Shown piece after piece: positions 4,172-55,100 of a DNA stretch of 64,000 bases (positions are counted from its first letter, which is position 1; the number at the start of each line of letters is the position of its first letter). Made by a program: the position numbers and the translations under genes. The notes beneath the pieces are model-generated. The model was not told the origin of the DNA. It ran no database searches and saw nothing but the letters and a program-made list of their open reading frames with translations. The DNA is from Lineus longissimus (Eukaryota; Nemertea; Pilidiophora; Heteronemertea; Lineidae), in the NCBI RefSeq assembly GCF_910592395.1, contig NC_088320.1, forward strand, positions 16,120,501-16,184,500, in the 5' to 3' direction.

Positions 4172-7100
4172 GTAAGTTGCGTGAGGCTGGATATAATGGA
4201 AGCAGTCCATAAAACAGCAACTAAATGTTGATATCATCCTGACTGCCAAACGATTGCAGCAGGTACACAACGCCATGCTAAGGAGTCCAAATCCTCATGC
4301 GTCTGTTAAAGGATTCTGGTTTAAGCATTTTTTCAATATGGTTTAGGCATTCATAATGTCTTAAATACACCTTTTACATAATTCATCCAGTCCGTTTTTA
4401 GGAACTTCAGAATCTTTGATTGCCTGTATTTCTGCCTGACGATCTTAAACCCGGATCACATAATATTCTTGGCGGGTATTTCGTCCTTGGAGTTTATGCT
4501 ATCAACGAACGACGAACGACAGGTAGAAGAGACCGCTACTGCCTCAGCGATCGAATCAGTTACAACAAATGTACAACCAGTCTTAGTGACCTGTACTAAC
4601 TATCCTATCAGCTTTTCATAGAGGTATAAAGTCTGAGAGTTGCTTATTATTTGGATCCAATTCAGCAGAAATGGTGTAATGGGGATTCTCCCACTTCACC
4701 CGTTATAATTGGCGCGTTCTATTTACTTCTACTTGCAGTTACGAAGCCGCCGAGTATTTTACAGGCGGGCGTGAAACTAAGCCAGGGCATGGGAGGTGGC
4801 CACTACCGTACGTTAGTTCATAACGATCCAAACGAGGTAAAACAAGCCAGAGTTTACTGGACTAACGCGGAGGCATCACGTATCAGTGTTGACTCAAAGG
4901 CACAGTGGAAGACAAAGTTGCCTCTGAAACCAAGATACATCAGTTCTGACAATCGAAAAACTGATATCTCACTCGGAGCAAATATGAAGATAATATATCG
5001 CCAAGGTAAGATAATCTACCAAAGTCTTAAGTAATTTGCTTTAAAGAAGATTATGGTGAACTTTGAAACTGTCGATCTGCAAATATGTAGCCATTCCTTT
5101 TTTTTGTCAGTAGTAGATTTTAAGATATTTTAAAATCGTTTGAAGTACAGCTTACTTGTGAGACACCTGCGAAAAAGATCGAGATGCCGAAGCTCGGGCA
5201 CTTGCGAAAATGACAAACCTCGCCGCAACAGACGTCGCATGGTGTAAATGGCTGCCTCTGTGGGCCACTGTGTTTTTTGCAGGATGGCCAGCGTAAAATA
5301 ACGTGGCGAATAGTGGCTGGCCATAATGACACCTATTGTCCGCTCAGGGGTCGCTGGGTCGTTTAAAATGCTAACTGTGATTATAGTACAGTGCAACCCT
5401 TATCTACCTAATCTTAAAGCCTAGGTTTATTAGGTGAGGCTGAACACTACAATAGTGCTGACTGTTAAGTAAATGTCATTGTGCTTTTGGTTCACTAATG
5501 TGCAACTGCGACGATTTCTTAAATCTAATTTGGGGAACCAAGAGGATTTTTCACATTTTCAGTAACTGTATTATTCGCGCCAGTCACAGTTACAGTTACG
5601 ACCGCACTCAACGTTGCTTAACTTCTAGCCTGGACACAACGTGCAAACCATTCGGCCATTAAGGAATTCCTCCATGCCATATAACTGGGGGTGACCCGTC
5701 CTCGAATAGCCTAATATCATTAGGCCCCGCGTGGTGGCGCTGAGGCATTGCCAGCCGGGCCCTAATTCTAAATGATTTCATTTTTGTAATCCTTGACCAG
5801 AATTTTGGAATTGCAGGATCTTCGGCTAGAATAAGTTTTCGTGTTGTAACGACGCAAACAAAATCTAACAGTTGGTTTTTCATATGAGTTGTCTGTTTCG
5901 GTCATAATTTACACAAGTTTGATTGTAAGTATGGACAAGCAGATTTAATTCAATAAAATATTCCCATGTTTGAAAATCGACGATTAACTTCGGTTATATA
6001 CGTTGTCCCTACGTATAAGTTCCCGTGGCCAGTGCGTAACCACTATTGGTCATTTCCGGGCCACTCTCTGTTATGCAACCAAGAGAGAGTGGTTGAGACA
6101 CGCTAGTTCTTTACCGACACCTAGCGTCTCTGTACCGAACTACAATCCAGTGCTCGCATCGCGTGGGATCATCTGCCAGTATCTTGTATTATACGCGTGG
6201 GTCGACCATCCAAGGTATTACCGCGCTCATCGTTGCTTAACTTCTAAGCCTGGAGACAACGCGCCAATCATTCGGCCATAAAGGAATTCATCCGTGGACG
6301 GTGGGCGAAGCCTGCCATATGACTGGGGGTTCTGTACAATGACCATGGTTAAGAAATATTTCTAGGTATGCATTCTTGCACATTGGTGTAGTATATTGAT
6401 TTTGACTTTTTTTCCTCGTCTGTACTATTCATATCAAGATTAATTTTGATGAAATCTTCAGCTCATCTTTTTTCATGTAAATCTTCAAATGTGCAAAGTA
6501 TCATTAGAAAAAATCCGCCCCGGTCCGGAACCACAAAATCGTCAAAGGCCTCCATTGAATTTTATGTTTACTTGGCAAATCTCTAACATCGAAATTGTGT
6601 TGGGTCCAAATGATACTTTAAGTTGATTGAACAAAAACCGAACTTAGAAAAAATCGACCTCGCAATTTTTGCAAAGGACTGTGACATTTACTTCGGAAAA
6701 AGCCTACATGTATACATGAAGTTGACCGATCGAGGCCATAAATAGGTTTGCGCAGCCGAGGTGAATTCAAATGTGTTTGCATCTCTTCATTTTACCACAA
6801 TTTACTGCTGAGTACGTCCAATTTAAGATTTATTTTGCGTTTAGCTGCTGGAACAGGGAATACGACCCAATATGATTGCACATCCTCCCCATCACCGAAT
6901 GAAGCAAGTTGCAGCGAAGAGGTGGATTTGAGCGAACGAGTAAAGGCACATGGAAGAAGGTATGTCTCTACTAATGTCTTGTAATAGCATTCCGCGAAGA
7001 TGATGTCACTGCAGCTGCTGCCCTCTATTTGCCCATCGCTGAATTACAGGAAATGTCGGACAAACATGCGGTTTCGTAATGGATTCAGGCTTTCTAACTA

Positions 7101-10100: not shown

Positions 10101-13100
10101 AGTCGCTACACTGCGGATTCCAAATTGTGCGATTTCAAAGTTAAAAGTTTTTTAATAGTGGGTTTTTTGTAATCTCATATCATTTCTGGTAGAGGTTATC
10201 ATCCGAATCCCCCTCCCCTCCATCCCTGAAAAGCTTCAGTAGAACTATGAGCTGCTCAATCAGCGCTATACATCATGAGTTTTGGCGGTACCTATTAGCA
10301 CATATGGTTGGAGTAAGGCATGTTACAAGACAACGATACTTGACTAGAATCTCACGCCGACTGTGTTGGGATCGAACTGGGAACATCTTGACCGCTGGCC
10401 GAGAGTCCGAGTCACAAGGCCACTGCGGCTCCCAGCGGTATACACGCTTTCCGTAGTTTCACGTCGCCAGGTGCTGACGTTTTTCTATTCCATTTCAGTT
10501 TAATGTGTCTAAACCTGGAGTCTACTCTGTCGTTCTCACGGTGTCGGATAAGGCCGGCAACCACGAGAGAGCAAGGGCATTCTTTACCTACGATCCTGAC
10601 TCGACCATCACTATCAAAAATGGAACAAGCATCAAAATCAAAGGCGCTGTCAACAACGCAGCAATTAATTGGCTGAATGACTTGCACAAGCCAATCATCA
10701 TGACATACAGTAAAGGCCGTTATATCAACCTGAACTACGCTCATGGGAAATGGCTTGGAGGGATTCAGAAATGCTATGGTATGAATGACACATACGATGA
10801 AGCCACTGGTACAAGAACTACAGCACCAATCACCAATAACCAAGGTAAGTGTTATATGTATAGTACCCCCAGGTATATGTCACGGCTTAACCCGCCGGCC
10901 ATGAGGGAATTCCTTTATGGCCCAGTGGTTGGCGCGTTGGCCCCAGAGTGGAAGTTAAGCAACGTTGAGCGCGGTCAACCTTTGGATCGGTGACCGGCGC
11001 GTACAATACATCTGGCAGACCTTCCCACGCGATGCGAGCTCTGGATTTGTAGCTCGGTACTGAGACGCACGAAGCGCTAAGTAGGATCGCGGACGATCCA
11101 CGTTGAGCGCGGTCAACCTTTGGATCGGTGACCGGCGCGTACAATACATTATATACTAAATATATATTACCCGATAGGGCCATTGCCGCCTTGAACCACC
11201 TTGCTACTAGCCGCCACGACCGCCCTGAACCACAACATTGACAAACAAACAAACAAAAACTTACAGAACAATAATATTGTAACAGAATGTTCTACAAGAA
11301 TACAAGAAAGATTTACCTTTACAATTTATTTCAACAGTGCCCGCTATAATGTTTTTCTAAGTGAAAACATTCTTTGTTTATTACCAACTGACAGATCGAT
11401 ATCATTTTGTTGAATCAAATAAAACTACAAATGTGAAATAATGAAGAAACGTGCGTGTTAACCAAATCATTTAGAATATAAGTAATTTTAAGTACGTGTG
11501 TTTGTTATTACGCGCATGGTGATTTTGGAAATATTTTCTTTCCAACGTCTGAAATATCAGATTTTCCAAGATAACTATGCGGTGAACTATTCTTTACCCA
11601 TTGATTGATGAGTCTGACTGGCACTGATGGGCATTGAGTATAATGGCAGACCACTGAAAGCACGATTGTGTTCAATATGTATAGCAGAACAATCCTTTTC
11701 ATATGACAGGCGTTGTGAAAATGGAGATAGGCTACGCGTTATTGAACCAACCCAACATCCCCATCCGATACAGTGATGTCGACATCTTTTCAACAAAGGC
11801 ATCTTTCAACATGTCAAGGGCCGATGGTGACTTTATTAAGTAAGTACCAAGTTATAGCAATATCCTTGGGGGGTTTCTAACATTGTATCATGTATAATAG
11901 TTCCAATCTTAACCTTCACATGAGGACAGTATATATGATGACTTATGGAATGCCCAAGGAGTTAATGCCATGGGCGCCAGCATGCAGATATCACAATGTA
12001 TAAAGAAAGTGACTACTTGGCAAGCCCGGCTTACCAAACAGCGACTTTTTCTTGTCCTGAATGGAGAGCCGAACTCATTAATATTAAAGTAAAGTCTCCA
12101 GCTCGCCAAACAGGGTAGATTTTTTACCTGTTTAGCAAGCCCGGCTGGCCGAACAGGGTGGCTTTTTAGTGCTGTTTGGCAAGCGGCTCTCCAAACAGGA
12201 CAAAAAAAGATGCCTGTTCGGCTTGCCAAATTGACCCAGCCATGTATAAATACATCCAAAAAACAAATTAGTTCAAAAAACCATTCACTTAAAAACCAGA
12301 AATATAGCCTTTCTTTCGGCAGCTGTAGATTAGGCACCAGTCTACCGATTTAGACGAGTCTAGTACCGCTGAGCTGCATTTGCTCTCTACTACCCATTGG
12401 CATTTACTTCTTAGTCTTTCAGTTAAGCAATTCATCACTATGTTACATTGTATGTACAGCTGTTTTTACAACTGAGCCCAATTTTAAGGCAATGGTCCTG
12501 TTGTGTTCTTTTATCCCCTATGTGCCGCTAGTGTACACACTCATGAATAAGTAATGAGTGTTGCCATGGTAGAGCTACGCCAATCCAGTGGGTAGATTGT
12601 AAAATTGAAGGAAGTGGCTATTTGGCAAGCCCGGTGTAGAAGTTTAAAATGTCCTAGGATAAAATGTCCGGGAACAAAGGATTCTATTATGCGCTGAGCT
12701 ATTGACGGTCATTGCCTCTATAGAACCATATGCCATAATCTGTCAGAATACAATAGGCCCAGACACTTTTTCTAGGGGGACACTTTTTACTTTTACACCG
12801 GCTTACCAAACGGCGACTTTTTCTTGTCCTGAATGGAGAGCCGAACTCATTAATATTAAAGTAAAGTCTCCAGCTCGCCAAACAGGGTAGATTTTTTACC
12901 TGTTTGGCAAGCCCGGCTGGCCGAACAGGGTGGCTTTTTAGTGCTGTTTGGCAAGCGGCTCTCCAAACAGGACAAAAAAATATGCCTGTTCGGCGAGCGG
13001 CTTGCCAAATACACCCGGCCAAAAATTGAATTTAGCAATAATAGCTCACAGTGTTGAAAAATAGATTGTACTTGAATAAGTTTACTTTTGTACTTCGCAA

Positions 13101-16100: not shown

Positions 16101-19100
16101 AAGGGCTTCTTTGACCATGAGAGCGGAATTGCCTACTACCAATTTATCTGGGGTACCAGCTGTGCTAATGCTAGTGTTTTCGGCATATCCTACGACAATT
16201 CAAAGGTATTTTCTTAGTCTTAGTCTTACTTAAACAAGTAGACAGTCAGGTATGTTAAGTGAGATTAATCAGACTCAACGTGTAGGACTTCAAAAACGAC
16301 TTTGTCAGGTGTATAGTACCCCCAGGTATATGGCACGGCTTAACCCGCCGGCCATGAGGGAATTCCTTTATGGCCCAGTGGTTGGCGCGTTGGCCCCAGA
16401 GTGGAAGTTAAGCAACGTTGAGCGCGGTCAACCTTTGGATCGGTGACCGGCGCGTATAATACATCAGGGAATGCAATTAAACTTTTTTTAAGCATGCACA
16501 GGGGAATACAATCAAACTTGCTGTGAGGTTTCTAACCACCTTTCGGAGCGTGACTTTCTTAATAGATCACTAACGACAACTCCGTATGACCAAAACAGAA
16601 GATTTGAAGTTAGTAAACACTTTCAATGAACTAGGCTTCTCTTAATATGTAAATTGATACCCATTAGCCTCATAACACACAAATTATTGGTTCACATTTT
16701 TTTCTTCGTCGATTTCCTCCTTGAAATCTATCATTACAGGTCTTATTATTTTGCATAGCCTAGCTAAATGTGTATGCAGGCTTGTCTCTCGTCAAATTTA
16801 TTCAGTGAATCTCTAGTTTTTGGAGAAAAGCTGTTTTTGTGGTCATTTGTCCGTTGATTTCGTTGATATTTTGGGAGATGTCCGTTTACTCGATAACTGC
16901 TTTTAAAATCAAATAAAAGGTTTTTAAGGTATGTGATATGAATTAATATTACTACTGGTCGAGTGGGATTGACGTTGGACGTTGACTGTTGAACAGTTAT
17001 GCGGAAATAACGAAAATATGTCCGCATTGTTGAGAGTATATTCACTTCATGAATTAGAACCTTTCCCTTTGAGAATGCCGAATTGTAAAATAGAACGTGA
17101 TTGACAAATCTGTCGTTTTTCGCCAAAAATGCACACATATTTCTTAATATATCGTATATATATAGCTCGGTGATTTTATTGAAAATGTTTGCAGTTGATT
17201 TACATGTTTGAATGGTTTAAAAACAAAATTTTTAGAAGCGAGAAATAAAAAAATAGTTTTTGGCGCCAATGATGTCGGCAATGGCAGATTTGAATTAAGA
17301 TTCGAGTCGATTCTTTTGGAAGCCGAAAGTGCAGATGCACAGGGCAATTGCATTTAGAAAGCTCCGCCGACTGATAGTCAAACCATTCCCTGGAGTGCTC
17401 GAAAACCTGGAATCAGTGTGTACTTCCGCTTGAAAAGTTCGCGGGTGAAGGGGTTTTCTTCATCATGATATTGATAATGACAATGATGATGATGGTTTAA
17501 GAGCGCTGGCGGATCCAGGAACTGGAAGAAGAGGGAGCGTGCGCTGCATTTCTCATCAAAATTGCTGCACTACAGGTGTGTTCCAAAATTTCATGGTCAA
17601 TTTCAAAGATTCTATAACAATCAGGGGGCGTACCTCTGGTGCACCCCTTGGATACGCCCCCGATAAACGTTCATGGATGAAAGTAGAAATAAAGCTTTAA
17701 AAAAAAACGATATAAGATTCGCCAGGGTTTGAATCTAATTCGAATCCGCGCCTGATAAACGTTCATGGATGAAAAAATGGAAAGAAGACCTTTTAAAAAA
17801 ATGAAAAAATACATTCGCCGGGATTTGAACCCGTGACCACCCAATCTAAAGCACAGCGCTCTAACCGCTGAGCTATCAGGGCGTTCATGTTTGACTTGAG
17901 ATATTCGGCAATCTGAAGACAGGCCTTAGGGTATGCGCCATGATTGTGGCTAGGTCACGCTGGCGGAAGAGTAATTGGGTGCAAATAGTTCCAAGGTAAC
18001 CGTATAACTCAATATTACTATATATATTTCTTAATATATCGTATATATATAGCTCGGTGATTTTATTGAAAATGTTTGCAGTTGATTTAAATGTTTGAAT
18101 GGTTTAAAAACAAAATTTTTAGAAACGAGGTCAACAGGGTCAAAAGAAATAAATTTTGGCGCCAATGATGTCGGCAATGGCAGATTTGAATTAAGATTCG
18201 AGTCGATTCTTTTGGAAGCCGAAAGTGCGGATGCACAGGGCAATTGCATTTAGAAAGCTCCGCCGACTGATAGTCAAACCATTCCCTGGAGTGCTCGAAA
18301 ACCTTGAAAAGTTCGCGGTTGAAGGGGTTTTCTTCATCATGATATTGATAATGATAATAATGATGATGGTTTAAGAGCGCTGGCGGATCCAGGAACTGGA
18401 AGAAGAGGGAGTGTGCACTGTATTTCTCATCAAAATTGCTGCACTACAGGTTGGTTCCAAACGCGCCAACCACTTGGCCATAAAGGAATTCCCTTATGGG
18501 CGGCGGGTTAAGCCGTGCCATATACCTGGGGGTACTATACAATGTTAACTATTCAATGTGACCGCGAGCTTTTTCATCGGTCAGCTACTTTCCCGGCAAT
18601 GTGCAAACTTGTTAAATTCCTAGAAATCTTTCGGAGTAAACTATGTCAAAATTAACCATTTCATTAGCGGAATACATTTTATTCAAAACCAGGTACTTTG
18701 ATAAGTACGAGTTTAAGCGCGTAACTAATGTATCTGTAGCTTATAATTTAGCGATCTTTGTCTGTAGTTTGACAACTTTGATTGAGTGTTTTGATCGGAA
18801 CCGTAACAACGTTAGTTCACTCCCACTCTCCTATTTATTTTCGTCTGCATGCCTGACACAAGTTTCAAGCCGGTGTAACATCTGTGGTTGTTTCCCATGT
18901 GTCAGTGTTTCCAAACAATAGGCAGCTAGAGAGACCACGACTTTTCAATAGGGGGGATACACAGAAAAACTTGTCAATCTATTTTTGAGCGTTCCCAAAC
19001 AATGAGGGGAAACACTCAAAAACAGAAACACTCAAAAACATTACACCGGGTTGCCGTAGAAAGTATTTTGCTATTTCACCAAATCAATCTATTCGTGAAA

Positions 19101-22100
19101 ATTCTGAAGTCACATCAAAGTGGCGTTCAGAAGAACAATTAGTTGAGATGAAGTTGTTGCAATGACAGCTTATGACATGACATTTGGGTTTAAGAAGGGA
19201 GTTGCTCTGTTGTGTTGTCCTTTTGACCTCACTTGGGCTGTGTCCCTCGATATTATATTAGTTTCAGTGGCCTGTGGTAACCAATCTCATTGTGAACCTG
19301 ACGCCGATAGGCTTGTTATTTTACATTCATCTTGTCTATTTTTAGGTCAAGAAAACTACAAGGGGTATCACGAGATGGATTGCACCAGCCGGCGGACGGT
19401 ATTTCATCACGGTGGTCGCCTTCAATATTGCCTTAGACCATTCTATACCTGTGTGTTCCGATGGCGTCATAGTTGATGAGACAGGCCCGGTTTTCGGTGA
19501 ACTCACTGTCGAAAACACCAAAACTATACCAGGCCTTGTCAAAGAAAATGGAACTGTGTACTTTGTTGGAGTTGATAGGAAGAAGATACGGATAAGGAAC
19601 CCATCGAAGTTGTGCATGTAGGTATACTTTAGTGTCTGAATGGTAGATACAATCTCGGTTAAGACGCAGGGAGACCAGTGACATTGTGGATAGAGCGTCA
19701 TTTTCGAAACCATGTGGTCGTTGGTTTGACTCTCGCTGTGTCCTCAAGTAACCCAATCAACCTTAAATTGCATCAGCTGAAAACGGAGGTTACATGTATC
19801 TTTGTGTCTTTACCCGGGAAAGCAAAAGACCAAAAGTGAGAATTGGTACTTGAAGTATGATCGGAGCACGTACAGAACGCCAATCCTGATTTTGCGGACG
19901 AATACTCTCCGGAGAATAACGCTCCGAAGTGCAGAGCGAAATTTGAAAAAGAAGAAGTTGACGATTAAGGCGGAGAGCCTCTTCTTCCTTTGCATGATGA
20001 GTGTAATTGATGAAGGGTTTCATGCATGTATTTACCGATCATTATTGAAGTGAATAATTCATGAATTATGTGCATCTGTAAATGAGTTTTCCAGATTTTT
20101 TACACGATGCAATATACAGTATAAGAAAAACAATGCAATCGGTGATAATCATTTTATGGTCTCCCCAGTGACGAATAAGCGTCTATACCGACCAATTACA
20201 AATATGTAGGAATATGAGATTTTCAGATCTAGAATCTGTTTCAATAATGATGAAATGGCATGAACTAGCAGGATTCAAGCACAAATCTGTGTGTATTATA
20301 CGCGCTGGTCACCGATCCAAAGGTTGACCGCGCTCGACGTTGCTTAACTTCCACTCTAGGGCCAACGCGCCAACCACTGGGCCATAAAGGAATCCCCTCA
20401 CGGCTGGCGGGTTAAGCCGTGCCATATACCTGGGGGTACTATACATCATTCCCCCCTTCGGACAGAGATGGATCGTCCTCGATCCTACTTAGTGCTTCAA
20501 GCGTCTCAGTACCGAACTACAAATCCAGAGCTCGCATCGCGTGGGAAGGTCTGCCAGATGTATTGTACGCGCCGCTCACCGATCAAAAGATTGACCGCGC
20601 TCAACGTTGCTTAACTTCCACTCTGGGGCCAACGCGCCAACCACTGGGCCATAAAGGAATTCCCTCATGGCTGGCGGGTTAAGCCGTGCCATATACCTGG
20701 GGGTACTATACACTGTGGCCATGGGTCCGTTGTTTCAATATGTAGGGCCTCATTAACATCAATGACGTTTATATGTTTTTTCTTTTTCTTCACTCACTAG
20801 CACCAATGCCACAAATACTACTGACATCACAATCTACCCAGACTCAACGTTTTCGAATGGGACGATAAAGACCGAAGGTACAGACTTCTGCGAGGCAAAA
20901 CACCCAATGTCATTAACATCGTCTACGCCATTAACAAAGGATCGTTATGTAAGTACTAAATACTCGGGTGACGCTGTTGTGTGCACGATATCTAGGGAAC
21001 AAAATATGTCACTGATTTAATAACACTATTTACTTTAGGTGATTCAATATCGTCATTCAACACGTAGGTCCGAATTTGACATTACGTTTTTCTGCCCTTG
21101 AACAGAAAAAAAACGCGTTTAGGCCTAAAGGTCTTTGAAAGCACATTTCGGATGATTTATTTAGAAAAGGTATATAGGAGGGATATATCCGAAATGTGCT
21201 TTCAAAGACCTGCAGGCCTAAACGCTTTTTTTCTGTTTATCTGTTCTTTTTATTTCGAGCACTGCTAATGCCGCAAGTACCACTGCGCGTGATAAAACGG
21301 GATTGCAAGAAACGTCCTCGTCCCTAAGATCCATAAGCCAGGCAAAAAGAAGCTGGGTGCTGTTTGTCTAGTGTAATGGCACCCAGGGTGCTTATTGTCC
21401 AGTCGATCTCGAACCTGGGTACCATTTGTCGGCACCCAGGACGACATCCACCCTTTCAGCCAAAGTGGCTATGTTCAAAAATCAACCATGCTTCCCGTCA
21501 GAGTAGTCCTAGCTACACTAAACAATGATATATATATTAAACATCGTATATAATACTGGTTATTAAAATCTACCTGGGGTGACACAAACTGCATTGTTTA
21601 GAATTAGGCTTGTTTGTCGCCTCTGGCTATGTAATAATCGCACAAAGCAGCAGTGACCCATATAGACCATGGGGCGTGCTGGAAAAAGATGCTTAAGAAG
21701 GAAATTTAATTGACTCTCTTTGCAACTACAAAAGAACACTTGTTCTTAGGTACTTTGGGGGTGCTCTTTCCAAATCTGCAATGTTCTCCTTTGTAAATAT
21801 CCTCAACTCAAAGGAGGTGTTAAACCCTGCTGCCCTCTGTTGGATTAGTAATAGGGAGGGCGGCTGATCTATGGAACAGCCTCCTTGCTATTGTTTGGGG
21901 TTGAGGAATTAGGGTCAGGCTTCGGTCGGGAACAATTGACGATTTTGAGGGAAGATAACATATGAACCGAATCGGGATCAAGGGCTTAAGAAACGTAATG
22001 GACATCAAAAGGCGGATTTGATGTCCTTCTTGTAATCATTTCTCATGACTTCATTGACACTGGAGATGCGAATGAGTCCATAAAACATATGTTTTAACGA

Positions 22101-28100: not shown

Positions 28101-31100
28101 AGCAAACAAAACAACTATTTAATTTCAAAATCCAAGTTTTGAAGACATGTACATGTACTTCCAAACCTCCAAAGTGCCAACCAGCCTGCAGTTACTTCTG
28201 ACCGCGTCGGTGGGCAGCAAACATGCGCACTATTGTAGGTAGAACTAATGGGTTCCTACCTTATACTTTCAGCAACTTTATGGGTGACCTTTGAACCGTT
28301 CCTGAGACTACCAGTGACAAACTCAATAGCTAAGGGTAACCTTGGTCTCGTCTCTGGAAAGCGGTATCGGTCTGTGGTACGGCTGTGTCACGGGGATATC
28401 TGTTTCGATGACATCTACAGTGATGGTGTCCTCGTCCTTGCAAAGCCACCTGCTGCAGGATCTATCCATGTGCAGTACCAAGAACCTAAGACGGTAGGTT
28501 CATTTATTGCCAAGGAAAGTTATTTCATAGCTGTTACGCTTATATCAGTTGTCATGCGAATAGGTATATACATTTCCAATAGCTTCTTTACGTTTTAGCA
28601 GCTAAAGTTAGCATGCGAGAACATATTGAGCTGGTTAATGCATAGTTGACTGTTATTGAGAGCGCAGGGCCTGCCCACTTTTGTCGACTCGAAGTATGAT
28701 GAAGGCTTTGCGTCGAATTTGCATCCAGTTTTATTGTAAGCATTTTCTTACAGATAAATGTGATGTTTGATAGATTTGTAGACGTCGACATTCCGGAGTT
28801 GTACACCGATCTTTCCCGTTCTGTAATTGACGTCTACGAATGGACAGTGGCAGCGAGCAGGGCTCCTGGTCAACATATTGCGGACTGGAGAAAAATAGAG
28901 GTTAACGTCACAGACATAAAAAAGGTAAGGGCAACGTATGCAGTGATAAATATTCAGTGCAATTATTAGGAGGAAAAAACAAAACATGTAGCATGTAATT
29001 GGTGCTGTTTGGATCATTCATTATTTGATACATTATTTCCGGCTGGCTACATCCTTGTACTTGGACAGCAACAATATCATCAGTTATTGGACAGAGGACA
29101 CACATAAATCGTCTAACTCTGATTGTGGTGCAGGCCAATATTACGACTGTTGGAACATTAGATTTGTTGAACTTGAATAATAAAAAGACAGGATAATAAT
29201 CTGACTCGATTATAAAAATAGTCAGGATAGTACCGGTCTTAAATGTAGCCATATTCGACGTGAGTCCTCAACACTCCATATCAGATAATGTACAGGCTAA
29301 ATAAACCATAATACACTTGCTTTTGGCAAGATCCGAACACCTCAAACGTACGTATTCAGAAATTACTATACACCATTGACTGTCAATTCGGCGGGGGGGG
29401 GGGGGGCTTTTGAACATTTATATATTACGTGAAACAGCGCCTCACAGATTTACCTTTAAGGCTGACGTTACATAGGCCTCATTCGTTCACTTCCCACATG
29501 TCACGTTCCAGCTTTACTTAACGTTCCTCGGTGAATGCACGGCCTTGTGGCATGCATTCAGTGAGGGACGAACGCATTAAGGGGAACGTGACATGTGGGA
29601 AGTGAACGAATGAGGCCTATGTAACGTCAGCCTAATCACTGTGTTACTTACTTACTTTCTTACTTAATCGTTTCATTGTTTTATAACTTCATATTCCTTT
29701 AGGCTGAATTCGTTGCGGTCCTAGACCAATCTCTATCTTTCAAGACCTGCAACCGACTTGTCTTGCGTGGTTTCTCAAAGGCTGGGCTAAGCACAACAAT
29801 ATCGAAAGATATCAAGAACTGCAATGATATCAAACCGCTAGCACCGGTAGTCATAGATGCATATGGCCAACCTGTCCTCGAGAAAGGTAATAGTTTTGGT
29901 AGATTCCTAGATTTCCTCTGGAACTGAAAAGTTACTGAATTGTGCAGACCATTCAGTTTAGAATTTTGGTTTTGCAGTCGAATAATGGAAAAGAAAAAAT
30001 CTATTTTTGAAACGGCACGTTTTTCATTCAATTGGAAATCATTCATGCTTAGCAATATAGGTAGGCCCTTGTCCTTTTCACCCATTATAATGTCCTGCAA
30101 TTTTCATTGTATTGTCGTGGATACTTGAGAAATTAAGACTGTTAAAAAAAGTCTTTAAGGTGGAGACTTCGCATCGCTACGGTGTCATCTTTTTGTTTGT
30201 TTTTTGATTCAAACTTCTAGGTAAACCTGTTACACCAAGAAGAAGTACACCGATAACGAAAAAATCTAATGAGCCCTGGCCTCACCCTGACCGAGATTTC
30301 ACGCCGTACGCCAACATGCTCTCAGCTATCTGGCCTAGTCTCCGCCACGGGAACTTCACATACGCTGTCATTTTGGATGATACCTTGAATGCCTTCTCCC
30401 ACTATCATCGGCCAGACAAAATGGTCTACAACGATCCATGCTCCTTACCCACTGCAATCAAATGTGGAACCACGGGTAAACAAGGAATTTTATTTTCAGG
30501 GAAAGCTAAACACCATGATAACAATAAAATCCCGTTGCTAGATAAAACAGACGTAAAATAACAATATCACTACTGTGCATGCGCACGTACAGGCAATTGA
30601 CCATGCTTTTTAATAAATTCTAAAGTAGTCCTTCAGTATATCTGAATGGGGGAATTCTTCGATTTTGATTAAGGTTAGGTCCTCACCAGTTACAGTTAGC
30701 CGCATGCAGTTATGCTTTCGTAACCGCTTCGAAATGAACTCGCTGCAAGGAAGGTACAATAGTTTCAAGCTGCGTAACACATGAAAACGCAAGTCATGTC
30801 GTACAATGTCGTAGGTATTCATATTGTATTATACGCGCCGGTCACCGATCCAAAGGTTGACCGCGCTCAACGTTGCTCAACTTCCACTCTGGGGCCAACG
30901 CGCCAACCACTGGGCCATAAAGGAATTCCCTCATGGCCGGCGGGTTAAGCCGTGCCATATACCTGGGGGTACTATACACATATCTAATCTGATAACTTTA
31001 TCTTGCTTATTCATAAAATAATTTGATCGTGGACTTGAATTTAGAAATGTTGTTTTTGTGTTTTCACTGCATCATTATTCTGTTGAACCCGCATACCACT

Positions 31101-37100: not shown

Positions 37101-40100
37101 TTCATTACTTCGTGCATTGCTCACAAAGATGGCCACTTTAACCTTTATTGTGACCGTTAACGACTGAATGAACTTTTAGACTGGAAGAGTCTCGGTATTT
37201 CAGTCGAAAGAAGTAGCACTTAAATAGCGTAAATGTGAAATGGATCGGAATGGAATAGCGGAAATATGATGAAAGGCAACCACGCATGTCATCGTCCATA
37301 ACCCAGTTGCGCTTCGATTCTGCAGGGATAATGTTGGGGCGAAATGGTGGGGTTTTCTTGACCCACATAGTGGTATATCCCACTACTCCTGGTGGATTGG
37401 CACGACCCCTGGTGGTGATGACCTAATGAAGGAGGAACGCCTCCATCACACACAAATGGTATTCTTGCGACAGCTACCCGGTGGAGTAAGACTTCCAGTT
37501 GATAAAGACATCCACGTCACAATCGGTGCAACTAATCAAGTTGGTAAGTTTAATTTTCATTCACATAGAAATCGTGCAAAAGCCAAATATAATTTTCCCG
37601 ACATGATTTTTCTGTTGTGATTGTTCACTAAGGATTCCGTTACCTAATCAATTTCTCATCACCATTAGCAAGGTGTGATATTCAGAAATATCCTTAATAC
37701 GAACACAAATTTATCTGGCTGTCAGATCGATGCTTGTCGTTTTAAAATAACAATAGTACTCCATGGAATATTCCGCATGACAGTTTCTGAGACAAATCTA
37801 TTTTTAACAGTTGAAATAACTGATTAAGATTTGATCAATATTTAGACTTGATCTACATTATGCTACTAAATGATAGTTTGAAGTATGCTTAGTAATGTGC
37901 GTTACCTGGGATATATCATGTTGCCCTTTAACCCGTTATTATCGATTGGCCTTTTGAATTGTATGGAATTTCTAAAAACCGAGCAATAATTATTAGAAAT
38001 GATAAACAATACGTCGATGATTTCAAAAAGAGTCCAATAAGCAAATTTTTCATCTTGAAAAAAATCCGCATATATTTTATTGGAAATGGCTATTTGGCAA
38101 GTCCGGCTTACCAAACAGCGACTTTTTCTTGTCCTGAATGGAGAGCCGAACTCATTAATATTAAAGTAAAGTCTCCAGCTCGCCAAACAGGGTAGATTTT
38201 TTACCTTTTTGGCAAGCCCGGCTGGCCGAACAGGGTGGCTTTTTAGTGCTGTTTGGCAAGCGGCTCTCCAAACAGGACAAAAAAAGATGCCTGTTCGGCG
38301 AGCGGCTTGCCAAATAGACCCGGCCTATTTTATTTTGAAAACTACTTTGAATATCACCGTGATAATTGATGTGTAAGTAGACATTGGTAGTAGAAGCCAG
38401 ATGGCGCTGTTATCTCAATTTCAGAAAAATTGCAGATTGGTCAATTTGTGAAACTATCGACGAATAATCATAGCCATCCTGACTCGCATGCGTTTGCGTC
38501 ACCGCTATCGAACTCCACAAATGCATGACGGATTCCATAAATTTTCTTGTTTTCTCTGCACGCTCTCAGCGCACTCCAATCACAGCGCTGATATGAACAT
38601 TTAAATAGTGCAAAGGGCAACGCCGATCGCACGTTGTCCAACCTCGTCGCCTGTTTTGGCAGTGGTCCAACTGATGCAATTGTTAGTGTATTTTTTTTAG
38701 AATCCGTCTAATGGGTACTGGGTTGTAGGCAGAAACTCGTTCTCTTGGGATAGCCAAGACAAAAACTAGCTTTATCCCAACAAATTCTAAAGTACTTTTC
38801 ATCTACTGAAACTCGTTCTCTTGGGATAGCCAAGACAAAAACTAGCTTTATCTCCACCAATTCTAAAGTACTTTTCATCTACCTGTCCCCTGCGGCATGG
38901 GAAAACATGAATTATTACACTTTTAAATCGTATTGTCGTGGATATTTCAAAACGTATTGTCGCTCAGAATCGGATACTACTGCAGTTGCTGAGATCTTTC
39001 CGTAAGATATGTTCCGATAGGTTCAAATTCAAGGCTACTTGCATGGGCCCAAAAAACTGCTTCTGATGAGGCGGAACATGTCAAGATTTTGGGTAAATGA
39101 TTTAGCGATCTCATAATATTGCGGGTCAAGATGATTCATAGCATGATTTTGCTATATTTTAGGCATGTCTTCCAACGCGACCTCCAATGGATTCAAAGTG
39201 GTCACCTCCGCACCAGTCATAGTTCAGCATCCAACACATCTCCGATCAATGGGCTCTTTCTTCAGAAACACTCAAATCTTAGGAACCGCATTTGGTGTCG
39301 CATGGAAATTCACAGACGCCGGTTGTCCGATTGGAGAGCAATACATTCGACTGGGAACTGATGGAGTACACATGGAAGATGTGCCAACCGTTCGGGTAAG
39401 AGCTAAATGAGCTTAACAGTCATGTTTCCGAGCCTCGCGAAGCACGTCGTTGCAATGCATCAATTAGCGATTAGCGCAAAGACGATTGGTTTCATGATCG
39501 GAATAATACTGATAATTCCGTAGTTTTTCTTTTCCGCTTTCCCGCTTTCCTTCAATTTGCTGGTGGAAACTAATAATGTATAGGAGGCCGGGCACAGTCC
39601 ACAACTGGGTAATATTAATAATGACCCTTTTTACTCCGTTGGCCTGTTTTGTTTAATACTATAATATGCTGTGTATTATACGCGCCGGTCACCGATCCAA
39701 AGGTTGACCGCGCTCAACGTTGCTTAACTTCCACTCTGGGGCCAACGCGCCAACCACTGGGCCATAAAGGAATTCCCTCATGGCTGGCGGGTTAAGCCGT
39801 GCCATATACCTGGGGGTACTATACATCATTCCCCCCTTCGGACAGAGATGGATCGTCCTCGATCATACTTAGCGCTTCATGCGTCTCAGTACCGAACTAC
39901 AAATCCAGAGTTCGCATCGCGTGGGAAGGTCTGCCAGATGTTTAGTCTCCCCCGTCACGATCCTTGGGGAGGCCAGGCCCTCCATTTGTAACAGTTTTCG
40001 TGGCCAAAAAGACACGGGAATACTATTTCTGAACACGATATCTAATACTGCGAATTTGTCAATCTTTACAATATCGCCGTAGGCGATTACATATTAGTTA

Positions 40101-43100: not shown

Positions 43101-46100
43101 TCGCCACAAAATACAAAGTGTCCAAGATCAACGAAGGAATGTTCAATAAGTAGAACCGGTTAGTTTACTATCTGCTGATAATGGAGACATACTGCAGCCT
43201 TGCAATTTGACTGCCTCTGTGATTTCCTTAAACCACTTGAAGCTGAATGGTTGGTGTACTGTACGCGCCGGTCACCGATCCAAAGGTTGACCGCTCAACG
43301 TTGCTTAACTTCCACTCTGGGGCCAACGCGCCAACCACTGGGCCATAAAGGAATTCCCTCATGGCCGGCGGGTTAAGCCGTGCCATATACCTGGGGGTAC
43401 TATACATCATTCCCCCTTCGGACAGAGATGGATCGTCCGCGATCCTACTTAGCGCTTCATGCGTCTCAGTACCGAACTACAAATCCAGAGCTGGCATCGC
43501 GTGGGAAGTTCGCCAGATGTATTGTACGCACCGGTCACCGATCCAAAGGTTGACCGCACTCAACGTTGCTTAACTTCCACTCTGGGGCCAACGCGCCAAC
43601 CACTGGGCCATAAAGGAATTCCCTCATGGCCGGTGGGTTGAGCCGTGCCATATACCTGGGGGTACTATACAGTTGGAATTAAATCAGCTTTTGTCTGCCG
43701 TTGATCATTCATTATTCAACGTTGATAAACATTCATTGCAACTCCCCATCCCCCCCCCCCCACCACCACCACCCACACTCATGATCACGCACACAGACAC
43801 ATCTAAAGCAAATGTCTTAGACATGTGATGGGGTTTGGGGGGGGGGGGGGCTGGGTTCAAAACGAAATGTAAGCAACATCCGAACTGGTTTGATGAATCA
43901 CAATTACCATTTTTCCTAATTTTTTTTATGTCCATTTCTGCAACGTTTCAAAATAAGCCCGTGCCATATTTTGTTGACATGCATGTCAGATCCGTCAGCT
44001 TGCTTTGACAGAGGTAAAATGATCAGTTATCAAGGTCAATGTTCGAAAAACAATGTTCTTGGAAATTTCGTTGGCCATGGGATCACTACGAGAATCCATC
44101 TGGAATCTCGATGTGTACATAAGAACAATGATTTTTAAACCTTGCTTGTGAAAAAAACCTGAAACTAGAATAATTATTTGGAAGTGACTACTTGGCAAGC
44201 CCGGCTTACCAAACAGCGACTTTTTCTTGTCCTGAATGGAGAGCCGAACTCATTAATATTAAAGTAAAGTCTCCAGCTCGCCAAACAGGGTAGATTTTTT
44301 ACCTGTTTGGCAAGCCCGGCTGGCCAAATAGACCCGGCCATAGTATTCACAAGGTGTTTCACTTGTTCAATGCAGATGCGGTCAATTTAACGGTGTTTGA
44401 TGTCATCGACTTCCGTGAAGATTCCACTCTTCTAGACATAGATTACAGCCCTTCGACATGCCTGATGGCAGCGCGCTGGAAGTTAGATCCGTCATCAACA
44501 ATGACGCCAATCAGGTAAGAAACCGCTCTCCCGCGGTTGAAATTAACGAGCACTCTATCATGCATACATATCACACCGTGTGCATTGCATACTCTAGACT
44601 CACCGATCTAAGACCGTGTTGGAATATGCAAACCAAGCCCCATATATAGATAATGCCTTTTGTCGTTCGATGCCATTCAACATTGTTTATCGACATAGCC
44701 ATAAGGGGGGGGGGGGGGGGCGACACTAAGTTGTGTAACATTTCTGATGGTCATGACACCATGTCCTGCCCTTGTCATTTTTGTGTCGATTTCACAGCAA
44801 GGGCTCAGAATGTCAGGCGGATAGGCCCTGAGCCGATCAGATATAGAGGGGCCTTGCCTGTTCAATGTGTGGTGTAGTGGCTTGGACTCTCAACCAGCGG
44901 TCAAGAGGTCCCGGGTTCGATCCCCACTGTCGACGTGAGACTGTAGGCTGGCCTCTCTGTCTTACTTGCCTCTCTGCACCCAGGTGTATAAATGGGTACC
45001 GATGTGCAAGGGATAGTAGTCCTAGGGCTGATAGTCCGTGTAACAATAGCCCGCATTGCTAAATGTTTTGGTTAGGGTTAGCGGTACAATAGATCATGCT
45101 GCTTAATTGGTCAAATACAATGCTACCGGACTATGACTCCAGGGGGACTATATCCGCTGTCACACCGGTCAGAAATGCACAGATTATAGCGCTGGTCGAG
45201 CCGCTCATCTCTGGTCTACTGAAAGGTTTCAGGACAGACCGGGGTTGAACTGAAAGTCGGATGATAACCTATATCGTATTTGATATCAGACTATAAACCC
45301 TAAACTTTAACTTTTTTAACTTTATTGTGCCGGGGGCGGTCATGCCTCGAGATAATGAGCCGGTGTTAGATCGGTGAGTATTGGTTCCACGGTTCATCGC
45401 CATTTCGCCTATAATCATTTCGCCTACAATCATTTCACCTACCGCCATTACGCCTACCAGAAAATGCCATTTCGCCTACAGCCATTTTGCCTACAGTCAT
45501 TTCGCCTACAGCCATTTCGCCTATTTCCCATTTCGCCTACTTGTCATTTCGCCTACCCGCCATTTCGCCTACTCGCCATTTCGCCTACTGCCATTTCGCC
45601 TACATACAGAAAATGCCATTTCACATAATTATGAATATATTTGTTTTAAATCCTACATATTCATACCAGTATCAGTAATAATATATGTTACCAGGCCTTA
45701 TACCTACTGTTGCAAAGGATTTGCAAATCCACCACATTTGTTTGGTATCTGTCAAAAATATATGTTTGGCCATATGTAGGCCTACTGTAGCAGAGGATTG
45801 TATCCCATTTCCCTTTTAGAGTCCCAATCATCATACACTAATTTGTTGTTGTTGAAGCTCAATTTTGGTTACTCGATTAATTACTGGATTAATTGGATCA
45901 CTATAAAATGTGTCACACAACATAAGCAGACTAATTAAGCCTATGAAAGGATTCACAGACAATAGGAAACTGAACAAAACGGCTTCGGTGGTAGAATTAC
46001 TTGTAAGGGGTGAGATTTAAAGAGAGCTTCATTGGTCACATGTATCTGGGAGATATGAGTACAGTCACTATACCACATGTGGGTCTAATGACTACAAACT

Positions 46101-49100
46101 TATGGATTATCAAAAAGTAGGTTGACAAATAGGGCATAATGTTCCATAATTCATAGGTTTGTAATCAATAGCGCCACCTGATATATAGTGACCGTACTTC
46201 TATCTGCCAGCTAAAAATTTGCCTCAAACCACCTCTGTTCAATACAAATATCCAGAAAGTCCTACTTTCCTTCCAATTTATAAAAAAAACAAAAATGGCA
46301 GTTAAAGTAGGCGAAATGGCTAGTAGGTGAATTGACAAGTAGGCGAAATGGGTAATAGGCTAAATGGTTATAGGCGAAATGGCTGTAGGCGAAATGGCTG
46401 TAGGCGAAATGATTGTAGGTGAAATGGCTGTAGGCGAAATGATTGTAGGCGAAATGGCGATACACCGTAATAAACAAATGGTATTCAATCATACAGACTA
46501 AATAAATTGAACAAATTGAAGTTGAATTCAATTGATTAAGTTCAATTGACTCTGCTTAGATCAAAGGGAACTCTTTGCAACGGCTTCAAAGAAAGTAAGC
46601 TGGCTGTTACATGCAAGTAACACGATATGATTCACTGAGCTTACTCAAATAGTTGAGCGTTGTTTTTAATAATCATTTCAGTTATGATGTTGCTGTGGGG
46701 CTTGCCTCCTCGTCGGAGCCGGACGGGTTACACATGAAGGGTAACATCGTGTGGCGCAATGTTGGGCTCAGCAACCATGCTATACACACACGAGGTCAAC
46801 ATGGTAAGCGTTATTTAGCACCAGCATGCCTTTTAATTCCTTGTGAATCGGACAAAAATAGCTCATCGTTGTTAATTTCACTTTGCAACGACTCTTCTGG
46901 ACTATTCAGAAACAACGTGGCGCTTTGTTTCAGTATTTGACAGGATTCAACGAGACAAGCGCTTCTCTTCTCTTCGCTTCTCTTTGCTTTGCTGTGATCG
47001 GTGGTTTGTTGCAAGTGAAATGTACGCGTAGAAAAGCCAGAAAAATTGCTTTCTGGTTGACGAGTTATGGATTGTTATCAAGTATCAATTCACCATCACA
47101 CACAATTCACAATTAATTACATATGTTACTGTTTGATTCTTGTTTTTTCTAATGACAATAACTAATTGTGACCCGTCACAGCAAAACCTGGCGCATGTCG
47201 CACAGAAGATGAGCCAAAATGACACCACGAGATAATGGAAGAAATTAGTGTGCTCATATTTCACGATAGGCAGACAATAGAGAAATGAACAAACAGTCCG
47301 TCTCAACCTGCCAAGCTCAGAGCGACATGTGCCTGGTTTTACTGTGACGGGTAACAATTATGTCGGCCTACAAATATGAGGTATCTATCAGATTTGATGG
47401 GTGCTGTCAATCAGTTAATCGCCTAATGAGTCAAATTTGTTTTAAATTTGAGCTGGGTTTGGTTTGCCGCTGGTATTATTGTCAATGACAATCACTATTA
47501 AAAGTAATGTACATGTACATGTGCCAACAGATACCATATTCACCCTTGCTTCGACGCGCGTCCAATACCTTGATTAAAATACATGCAATCTATTTCAAGC
47601 TGAAGTTAATCAGCTATTACTTACTCATAAACGGCATCGCTGTACACATTGTATAGTAGTACCCCCAGGTATATGGCACGGCTTAACCCGCCGGCCATGA
47701 GGGAATTCCTTTATGGCCCAGTGGTTGGCGCGTTGGCCCCAGAGTGGAAGTTAAGCAACGTCGAGCGCGTATAATACATCTGGCGCGTATAATACATCTG
47801 GCGCGTATAATACATCTGGCGACCTTCCCACGCGATGCGAGCTCTGGATTTGTAGTTCGGTACTGAGACGCATGAAGCGCTGAGTAGGATCGAGGACGAT
47901 CCATCTCTGTCCGAAGGGGGGAATGATGTATAGTAGTACCCCCAGGTATATGGCACGGCTTAACCCGCCGGCCATAAGGGAATTCCTTTATGGCCCAGTG
48001 GTTGGCGCGTTGGCCCCAGAGTGGAAGTTAAGCAACGTTGAGCGCGAACCTTTGGATCGGTGACCGGCGCGTACAATACATCTGACAGACCTTCCCAGGC
48101 GATGCTAGCTCTGGATTTGTAGTTCGGTACTGAGACGCATGAAGCGCTGAGTAGGATCGAGGACGATCCATCTCTGTCCGAAGGGGGGAATGATGTACAG
48201 TAGTACCCCCAGGTATATGGCACGGCTTAATCCGCCAGCCATAAGGGAATTCCTTTATGGCCCAGTGGTTGGCGCGTTGGCCCCAGAGTGGAAGTTAAGC
48301 AACGTCGAGCGCGGTCAACCTTTGGATCGGTGACCGGCGCGTATAATACACACACAATGGTAACAAGTTAGCGTGATGCAACTGACCATCGCTATTGTTC
48401 GATCAGCTATCTGATATCTCGGCACGTGCAGCTTTTTGTGTCTCATTCAAAAACAACAATATGCTTCGCATTGAAACTTACGCAAGGTCTAAAGAAGATT
48501 AAATGGGCACACCATGTGAAGTTGTTTTAAAATCCAGTTTATATTAACAGCGCAGTGGCCATGGGAAGTGAGGTATGTGTGATCGAAAAACGGGTTCACC
48601 ATATACTGCTTTATTTACCGCATTGAAATAGTACCCCTCTGCAAAGTTTCATGCTTTCTTGAAGAAGTGAACGATTTTTATGCTTAGCCGCTCTACTAAG
48701 TGTACATTGCATACGGTAGAATCAAAATGCGCCGCGACGAGTCAAAAAGCGGGGTGTTTTTATTGATTGTGCTGTTTTTTTATGTTACTAGTGTTTTCTT
48801 CTCTAAATAGCTCATTAAACGCGGCGGTTACTGAATAATCAAGGCAAATAATGTGTTTTGCTCATGCATAACTAATTGAGTTCACTACCCTACTTTTGCA
48901 GTAGTTCAGAGAAACAGATGAGGTAACGGCTTTTTATGTAATCACCCGTCACCCCTTCCATTAACGGGGTGAGCCGTTCGTAATTACTGGTGGTCGAGGA
49001 AAATAGAAATGCAAGAGGTCCGTCGCGTGTCAAATCGTCGCACGGGTATTGCATGTATGATATACACTAATATACAGGTTATCCTTGCCTATATCGTCTT

Positions 49101-52100: not shown

Positions 52101-55100
52101 CATTACTGTCCATCCTTTGAATGGCATTCGACAAAAATGCGCATAATATCTAAGGCCGAAGTTACATAGACCTCATTCGTTCATTTCCCAGGACTCATTT
52201 TCCCCTTTTGCTTTCGTTCCCCTGTAAAAGCACGGCCTTGTGGCGTGCATTCACCGAGGAATGAAAGAAAAACCCGGAAAGTGACTCGTGGTAAATGAAC
52301 GAATGAGGTCTATGTAACTTCGGCCTAAGGGGGCTCGGCCTGCATATCCAGAAACAATGTTAGATCGGCGAGTCTAGAGAATTGACACTTTGACTCCTCT
52401 ACAGTATGTCTTATACCATAACAATCCACAGCTGTGTTGTTCTTTGGAATAAAAGTACATGGAACCGATTCACTAAATCCGAACTTTCCAGGAAGTGTTA
52501 ACTAAGTGTCAACTTGGTACTAGCTTAGTGTTAACTAAGAGTTGATCTGTAGCGGGGGTTAAGGGCAGGGTATCTTTACTTTCCAGGGTTACACTTGGGT
52601 AACCGTTGTGCCAGATTAACTCTGATATGACCTCGCGCAATGTCAGAAGTCTGAGAGCCGTTTCGACGGGCATTTTGGATGGGGTTTTCCGTGCGGGTCT
52701 CGAATATCGGCTATAAGATTTACTCTTTATCAATTCAAGGGGAAGACATAAAACCTCAACAGGAATCAACATCGTCATTTATGGAATTCCATAACTTGAG
52801 TCTTACTCCTGGTAGACAGTATTATAGCAACGTGAGGGCGTGTAATAAGGCCGGACTATGTAACGAGAGACATTCAGATGGCGTTATCATAGACCTCGAA
52901 CCTCCACTGGCTGGGGTTGTTCTGGATGGACCAGGTAAGCTAATAGTTTATTTCAGTTAAATAAAATGTTCTGTACCACGTGTTTAGATGAAAATACAAG
53001 CAGAGAATGTAAGACGTATCTGATGTGTTCGAGCCTGATAATCTGTAATATTTGGTGATTGTGACGTCTCGTTGAAATACAACCTATCACGGAGCGGCCC
53101 GGTATAACGCCAACTCCATCCAACCCTTCCCGGGCCGCTACGTAGCGCCCCGGGACAATGCCATCTCCAAACAATCTGTCCCGGGTCGCTACGTAGCGCC
53201 CCGGGACAAAGCTATCTCCAAACAATCTGTCCCAGGGCGCTAAGTAGCGACCCGGGTCACTATCTAGGCCTATTTTACTGCTGGGGTAATTAGCGCTATC
53301 TATCAATATACATGTATATATACATACAGTGACTACTTAGTTAACTGGTGCTTGGTCTAAAATTTTCTAAGTCACTAATAGAGGCCCAGAATGGGATATT
53401 GTCGATTTACGACCATGTAGGGCCTATACTAATCACATTTCAATGAAGAAAATGACAGAGTTTTGATTACATGTTCATTTCTTGATCTGGTCTTCTGTGG
53501 CCAATTTTATCAATCAATGGTTGGTATGAAAGGCAATTGCAGTTGTGTAATTTCCTAGGCCCTTTACCCTAACAATCATATTGGTCATTCCTGTAGAAAG
53601 TTCAAATCATGAGGAACACAACGTTGTTGTTACTGCTGATGCTTTCGCTCTTTGTCATGTGTCAGTCAATGATGGATGCTGGCAATGATGACGATGATGA
53701 TGATGATGATGCCGATCAGCAGAATGGTGCTGCAGCAGTTGGTCTCCCTCGACGATGTAACAGTTACACTGTTGAAGCCAGGCTGCGACATGCCTTGGAT
53801 TGCCAAACAGCAATTGAACATGGCCGCATTCTAAATGTCAATGAGTATGCTAGGCGCTATCGACTATCCCCAACAACGCTCAGGAGATGGATACAGAACA
53901 TCGATGAAATGACGGATCAAGTGGAGGAAAATGCAGAACGCCGGCGAGTCAGAACCGACCATGATGGTTGTTGGCCGGAAGTTGAGAATATCGTGCACCA
54001 GCATTTTCAAGAACGGAGGAATATTGCCCTGCCCGTTTCTCGGTCGGACATTGTTAATGATGCAACGATTGAATTTCAGAACTGGTGGGGCCAACTCCCA
54101 CACAATGAACTTGAGGACATTGCAGCACGTCGCCCCGAAAGGTCCCAGTTTTCTGCATCAGTGGGTTGGGTTACAAATTTTATGAAACGGAAAAAGATTG
54201 TTTTCCGCCGTAAAACGAAAGATTCCACCACTGTACCGGCTGATGCACCACAGAGAGTGAGAGAATTTCAGACTGGCGTTAGGCAAACTGTAGCTGACAA
54301 CCATGTCCACACGCTCTTGAACTTTAACGAAACGTTTGCTCAGTTGGACTTCCCTCCGATGTATACAGCTGAGACCAGAGGTACAGTAGATGTAAATGTG
54401 AAAACATCGCGAGGAAATGCCAAACTCGGGTGCACCGTTGGATTGACAGTTGGCTCCAACGGAGAAAAACCGCCTGCTCATGTTGTTTTCAGGCAGCCGG
54501 GCTTCGTGCGTCAGATTAGAGATTTGAACAACATTCCAGATAACGTACTGGTCACATCCTCGAGGTCTGGTTGGGAGAATGGAGAGACACTGCAACATTG
54601 GTTGGACAATGTTCTTTTCCCTTACATTGGCGATTTTGACTTTAATGACATCCTTCTGCTTTTGGACAGATTCCGACCGCATCAAGCAGAGGATTTCTGT
54701 TACCCAATGGTTGAAGCAGGCATACTGTTAGACAATATTCCTGCTAGGTGTACATCGCTGGCTCAGCCGTTAGATCTCACTATTATGAGGGGATTTAAAG
54801 CTATAATGCGAAAGTATTGGAAGTTATGGAAATGTGATGCAACTGAGGCTGACGGAAATTGCCGCAAAATTACATTACAGGATGTACTCGGCATTATAAG
54901 TAGAGCATGGAATGATGTAGCTCCTGAGTCTGCGGCTAAGTCATTTCAAGTGGCTGGCTTAACACCTCAACCAGATGGTCATTATCGTGATGATGTTGCA
55001 GATGATTTGTTGCTTGGTGAAAACGAATTGTCAGACTCCGATAATGATGATGATAACTTAAATTTTGACGACAACTTGGAATTGTAAAACAGTTGTAGTG

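Follow-up and report, generated by a model that had tools for sequence, protein, structure and literature searches.

Background

What is the 421-bp element that lies at the focal locus of this 64-kb stretch of Lineus longissimus DNA (the window), and has an LTR element in an animal taken up a 5S rRNA promoter in the way that Cassandra has in plants? An earlier note on the same DNA had described a TRIM, likened to Cassandra, with a 5S-derived promoter piece in its LTR, a description that both the structure of the element and its alignment to 5S rRNA support. The same note held that Cassandra had no animal counterpart, which is out of date, since Ajax was published in 2024 (PMC10886601). The papers cited here are cited from excerpts of their text, and what we say of them applies to those excerpts.

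Architecture of the focal element

The sense strand of the focal element is the minus strand, on which its LTR starts with TGTATAG and ends with ATACA (Table 1). The two direct repeats (20292-20445 and 20559-20712) are 94% identical and differ at 9 of 154 positions. A polypurine tract (PPT), GAAGGGGGGAATGA, forms the 3' end of the internal region and abuts the 3' LTR, while a candidate primer binding site (PBS), TGGC, begins two bases beyond the 5' LTR, the internal region beginning TC-TGGC. The repeat coordinates bear out the dimensions first proposed for the element (LTRs of 154 bp with TG...CA ends, an internal region of 113 bp, 421 bp in total), and we also see, as had been claimed, the PPT against one LTR, the TGG start two bases from the other, and the target duplication CTGTG on both flanks. 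As a TRIM we counted an element with two LTRs, a PBS and a PPT, shorter than 1000 bp and without mobilisation proteins; here a 154-113-154 arrangement of 421 bp carries a PPT and a PBS-like TGG, and it leaves no room for mobilisation proteins because 421 bp is too short to code for them.

Table 1. Features of the focal element and of the other family loci, in positions of the window
Feature	Position	Strand	Remarks
Focal Ajax-like TRIM	20292..20712	-	421 bp; CTGTG flanks both sides
5' LTR	20559..20712	-	154 bp
Internal region	20446..20558	-	113 bp, between LTRs
3' LTR	20292..20445	-	154 bp
5S promoter-like segment, 3' LTR (box A, intermediate element, box C)	20306..20351	-	LTR positions 95-140
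5S promoter-like segment, 5' LTR	20573..20618	-	LTR positions 95-140
tRNA box A / D-arm-like motif, 5' LTR	20633..20651	-	Pattern match and tRNA comparison
tRNA box A / D-arm-like motif, 3' LTR	20366-20384		Same motif as 20633..20651
Second two-LTR copy	43255..43671	-	417 bp; duplication GTTGG
Tandem array LTR-int-LTR-int-LTR	47650..48350	+	Middle LTR shared; flanks CACAT/CACAC
Internally deleted copy	10857..11148	+	Duplication TTATA
Solo LTR	16310..16463	+	Duplication TCAGG
Solo LTR	30825..30978	-	Duplication CATAT
Internal region and 3' LTR	39672..39941	-	Only last bases of 5' LTR remain
LTR start only	18460..18541	-	First 82 bp; stops short of 5S segment
Divergent, truncated copy	6123..6338	-	LTR 76% identical to focal; part of internal region
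Divergent LTR fragment	5567..5676	-	About 76% identical

The family in the window

BLAST of the window against itself finds ten loci of the family, the number first reported, so that copies of a TRIM with a 5S promoter are dense here, at ten loci per 64 kb. The LTRs of the second two-LTR copy show 4 mismatches over 152 positions, along with 2 gap columns; because both LTR pairs have diverged, neither this copy nor the focal one is brand new. The internally deleted copy retains its 5' LTR, 90 bp of internal region and the final 49 bp of its 3' LTR. Independent target duplications and solo LTRs are the traces that integrase-mediated insertion and LTR recombination leave. Among the six of ten loci that keep both ends, and on which the count of duplications rests (39672, 18460, 6123 and 5567 are truncated), five have perfect 5-bp duplications, all of them different (CTGTG, GTTGG, TCAGG, CATAT and TTATA); the sixth, the tandem array, agrees at four of five bases. 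By our own arithmetic, one perfect 5-bp duplication has a chance of about 1 in 1000 per locus. The four duplications listed beforehand for loci other than the focal one (TCAGG, CATAT, TTATA, GTTGG) are each perfect at their own locus.

These duplications bear on whether the family is instead a 5S-derived SINE (SINE3) or a MITE that happens by chance to stand in tandem pairs. SINE insertion proceeds by target-primed reverse transcription, and the length of the duplication varies. Those of HsSE3.1 and HsSE3.2, for instance, measure 19 and 8 bp (PMC3272025). A SINE3 has a 5S head, a LINE-like tail, duplications of variable length and no LTR; a 5S head is indeed typical of SINE3, and a SINE3 is the ancestor that Kojima proposes for the 5S segment of Ajax (PMC10886601), but the present family has paired LTRs with TG...CA ends, a PPT and perfect 5-bp duplications at five of the six testable loci. 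The earlier note had reasoned that copies lacking paired LTRs and 5-bp duplications would mark a SINE or MITE; we looked for constant 5-bp duplications and for solo LTRs as the signs that refute such an origin, and both are present among the copies of the window. We consider the SINE or MITE reading to have next to no probability, and treat the family as LTR elements.

Two copies show further peculiarities. In the tandem array, the first LTR (at 47650-47830) has an 18-bp unit, GCGTATAATACATCTGGC, as three successive copies instead of one; the repeats span the junction of LTR end and PBS and replace the box C region, and they may stem from slippage or from a template switch as reverse transcription began. 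At the internally deleted copy, a GTAAGT site resembling a splice donor (10845-10850, counted by hand) lies 6 bp upstream of the start of the copy and within the open frame 10478-10993 (+), and the copy may sit right where an intron begins.

A 5S rRNA promoter segment in the LTR

Positions 95-140 of the LTR align without a gap to positions 48-93 of 5S rRNA, and these 46 positions span box A, the intermediate element (IE) and box C, as the colinearity described in the earlier note would have it. That note had named a lack of significant similarity to 5S rRNA over 40 or more bases as grounds for refutation. Measured against 2000 dinucleotide shuffles, with human and Drosophila sequences as the 5S references, the majority LTR scores 32 against Drosophila 5S (antisense 17; equalled by 0 of 2000 shuffles) and 24 against human 5S (antisense 16; equalled by 5 of 2000). 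With the same references, the focal 3' LTR was equalled by none of 2000 shuffles for Drosophila 5S and by 1 for human 5S, and the focal 5' LTR by 0 and 85 of 2000, respectively; the resemblance of the focal 5' LTR to human 5S is weak. When the window was scored as about 3194 tiles (154 nt, step 40, two strands), the 40 best 5S-scoring tiles all fell in the family and covered nine of its ten loci, the tenth (18460) ending before the 5S segment.

Both motifs that the earlier note had quoted from the 5S segment, and had placed at fixed spacing in each intact LTR, are less uniform than this suggests. Among 12 LTRs aligned and read by eye, the two are letter-perfect in four (16310, 39672, 10857 and 47927), and in 47927 the spacing between them is three bases shorter. 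The others depart: the focal 3' LTR has the variants GTCGAGC and GACCAG, the focal 5' LTR has TTTTGATCGGTGAGCGG, LTR 30825 has GAAGTTGAGC, LTR 43255 lacks two bases, and in the tandem array the first LTR no longer has box C.

Rfam reports nothing at the gathering threshold over the whole window and, with E up to 10, neither 5S nor tRNA in 20200-20800, where two sub-threshold snoRNA matches lie outside the element or touch only its edge. From the lack of a 5S match in Rfam we conclude that a whole 5S is absent and that the promoter part alone remains. A 28-base pattern from the 5S region had 0 matches in IMG/VR, in a scan that may omit records near the genome of the window.

It could be argued that the resemblance to 5S is due to chance and that the TRIM, like ordinary LTR elements, relies on pol II. 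The 85 shuffles that do as well as the focal 5' LTR against human 5S, the silence of Rfam on 5S and the lack of TTTT in the majority LTR all fit such a reading, as does the lack of clear extra conservation: the divergent copy 6185 (locus 6123-6338) retains 37 of 47 positions of the 5S segment and 36 of 47 immediately upstream. The divergent fragment 5567 points the other way, with 39 of 44 positions retained in the segment and 34 of 47 immediately upstream. Because only 5567, and not 6185, keeps the segment better than the stretch upstream, selection on the 5S segment is not demonstrated. Against chance stand the absence of any equal shuffle for Drosophila 5S, in the majority LTR and in both focal LTRs alike, the gapless course of the alignment across box A, IE and box C, and the confinement of the best tiles to the family. 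We therefore judge a chance resemblance to be very unlikely, and take the segment as derived from 5S rRNA.

A putative box A of tRNA type ahead of the 5S segment

Ahead of the 5S segment lies a stretch, LTR positions 61-84, that is similar to the D-arm and box A of tRNA-Leu and agrees with human Leu-TAA at 20 of 24 positions. Among 15 human tRNAs compared, Leu-TAA gives the best score with the majority LTR (28, with a best antisense score of 22); 3 of 1000 shuffles do as well, and the largest shuffle score is 37. The divergent copies, which carry ATGGCCGAATGA or ATGGCCGAATGG, also fit Leu-TAA best, 6185 with a score of 21 (antisense 20; 96 of 1000 shuffles as good) and 5567 with 23 (antisense 14; 29 of 1000). 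A pattern made for the motif has 12 matches in the window (20633-20651 and 11 others), all within family LTRs, a count for which an expectation of zero overstates the case, the pattern having been composed after the motif was seen. A GGTTC box B is absent from the majority LTR as read from the alignment of 12 LTRs. Support for a putative tRNA-Leu-like box A ahead of the 5S motif is modest, and the excerpted text of PMC10886601 does not mention such a feature for Ajax.

More speculatively, and on balance we doubt it, the LTR might be a composite pol III promoter, in which the box A of a type II tRNA (Leu/Ser-like) begins 33 bp upstream of the 5S box A-IE-C block. If so, the ancestor of Ajax would be either a SINE chimeric between tRNA and 5S or a Helenus in which 5S had replaced the 3' half of the tRNA, and two modes of pol III start would be possible within one LTR. 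Comparable chimeric SINEs are discussed for moths, where a 5S head is joined to a tRNA-derived SINE body and tail (PMC3272025). Kojima traces the stretch upstream of box A in Ajax to a diverged SINE3 and reports a longer similarity of Ajax to CsSE2 and SINE3-1_ChrCul (PMC10886601); a tRNA, or a SINE that joined tRNA and 5S, may have supplied this upstream region, which would refine the SINE3 derivation.

A proposed life cycle

We infer, as Kojima 2024 also does for Ajax (PMC10886601), that the LTR is transcribed by pol III. TFIIIA and pol III would begin transcription some 47 nt before box A; by 5S geometry, +1 would then fall near LTR position 48, so that U3 would correspond to LTR 1-47. The RNA would end within the 3' LTR, a tRNA would prime the first strand at the TGG site and the PPT the second, and an autonomous LTR retrotransposon would supply the reverse transcriptase and integrase that insert the product.

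The majority LTR contains no TTTT terminator, its longest T runs being of three at positions 58 and 125, and termination in the 3' LTR would therefore call for a terminator that is weak or out of the ordinary, or for a different polymerase; the excerpted text of PMC10886601 has no treatment of termination without a T run for Ajax. In the focal copy the 5' LTR does have TTTT, at LTR position 125, together with one altered letter in box C, and because of these two changes the copy is probably dead or weak.

Primer and mobilising partner

Eukaryotic tRNA-Leu normally ends in ACCA, for which the expected PBS is TGGT. The PBS in the window is TGGC in six of seven internal copies and TGAC in the seventh, and the tRNA-Leu primer reported for Ajax (PMC10886601) sits poorly with TGGC because an ACCA end calls for TGGT. 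Comparison of the PBS with the 3' ends of the 15 human tRNAs, three Leu among them, gave no convincing match: the best for the shorter PBS variant was Arg-ACG (12 of 18), and for the longer variant Asn, Ile and Ala (9 of 18). Anywhere in those 15 tRNAs, the longer variant matches Ser-GCT, Leu-CAG and Leu-AAG best (12 of 18), at an offset of 12 bases from the 3' end, and these internal matches lean weakly toward the published Leu.

The 64-kb window contains no tRNA genes, and no autonomous partner was found there among the eight open reading frames scanned, of 26 listed at a length of at least 120 aa. Two of the eight have Pfam matches, one to a DDE_1/Tc5-type transposase and the other to a LINE-type reverse transcriptase. 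The transposase occupies a long open frame at 53597-55087, whose closest database relative is 80% identical; among its 7 matches, one is named as Lineus longissimus, at 38% identity. The reverse transcriptase frame (754 aa, 55729-57993, minus strand) has a closest relative at 62% identity among 120 matches listed of 636; it may be truncated, because it shows no endonuclease domain and many of its relatives among the matches listed have one.

Comparison with known systems

Three families of TRIMs whose LTR contains the promoter of a small RNA, Cassandra, Helenus and Ajax, are grouped as class TRIMp3 (PMC10886601), and Helenus and Ajax are also mentioned in a 2026 meeting report (PMC12859917). 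Helenus shares with the focal element its TRIM architecture and a small-RNA promoter within the LTR, and like Ajax it is found in L. longissimus and Notospermus geniculatus; it differs in having tRNA boxes A and B rather than 5S, and 4-bp duplications in animals (PMC10886601). The present family has 5-bp duplications, and its majority LTR has a box A-like motif alone, with no GGTTC box B. The lepidopteran SINE3 elements HaSE3, PxSE4 and CsSE2 likewise carry the 5S boxes A, IE and C (PMC3272025, PMC8010984), but they are SINEs, moved by LINEs and without LTRs.

Cassandra is the closest parallel in architecture, being a TRIM with a 5S promoter within its LTR (PMC10886601), and the long tandem arrays reported for it (PMC7215508) have a likeness in the array at 47650-48350. 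Membership in Cassandra, whether through descent or through horizontal transfer from plants, nevertheless appears highly improbable. As published, and it is by this description that we set the two apart, Cassandra measures 565-860 bp, has plant hosts and carries 5S sequence with promoters and terminators (PMC10886601), whereas the present element is 421 bp long, has only the promoter part and lacks TTTT in its majority LTR. The 5S segment also scores higher against Drosophila than against human, the only references compared, which points away from Cassandra, and Kojima regards independent origins of Ajax and Cassandra as "almost certain" (PMC10886601).

Ajax comprises TRIMs of the nemerteans Notospermus geniculatus and Lineus longissimus, with an LTR whose 5S rRNA portion is confined to box A, IE and box C and with 5-bp target duplications (Kojima 2024, PMC10886601). 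The focal element agrees in TRIM structure, partial 5S and duplication length, and its total length equals to the base that of Ajax-1_LiLo (421 bp; Ajax-1_NGe has 434 bp). We are highly confident that the element belongs to Ajax as one of its copies, an assignment made by the published description (architecture, partial 5S, lengths of duplication and element); its most likely identity is Ajax-1_LiLo of Lineus longissimus or something closely related to it. No difference from Ajax was seen; the PBS begins TGGC, a doubtful fit to tRNA-Leu, and the excerpted account does not mention a box A of tRNA type ahead of the 5S segment. Ajax being already in print, the focal element is no discovery but an instance of a kind already known, and it agrees with the view that animal LTR elements have acquired a 5S pol III promoter in parallel to Cassandra in plants.
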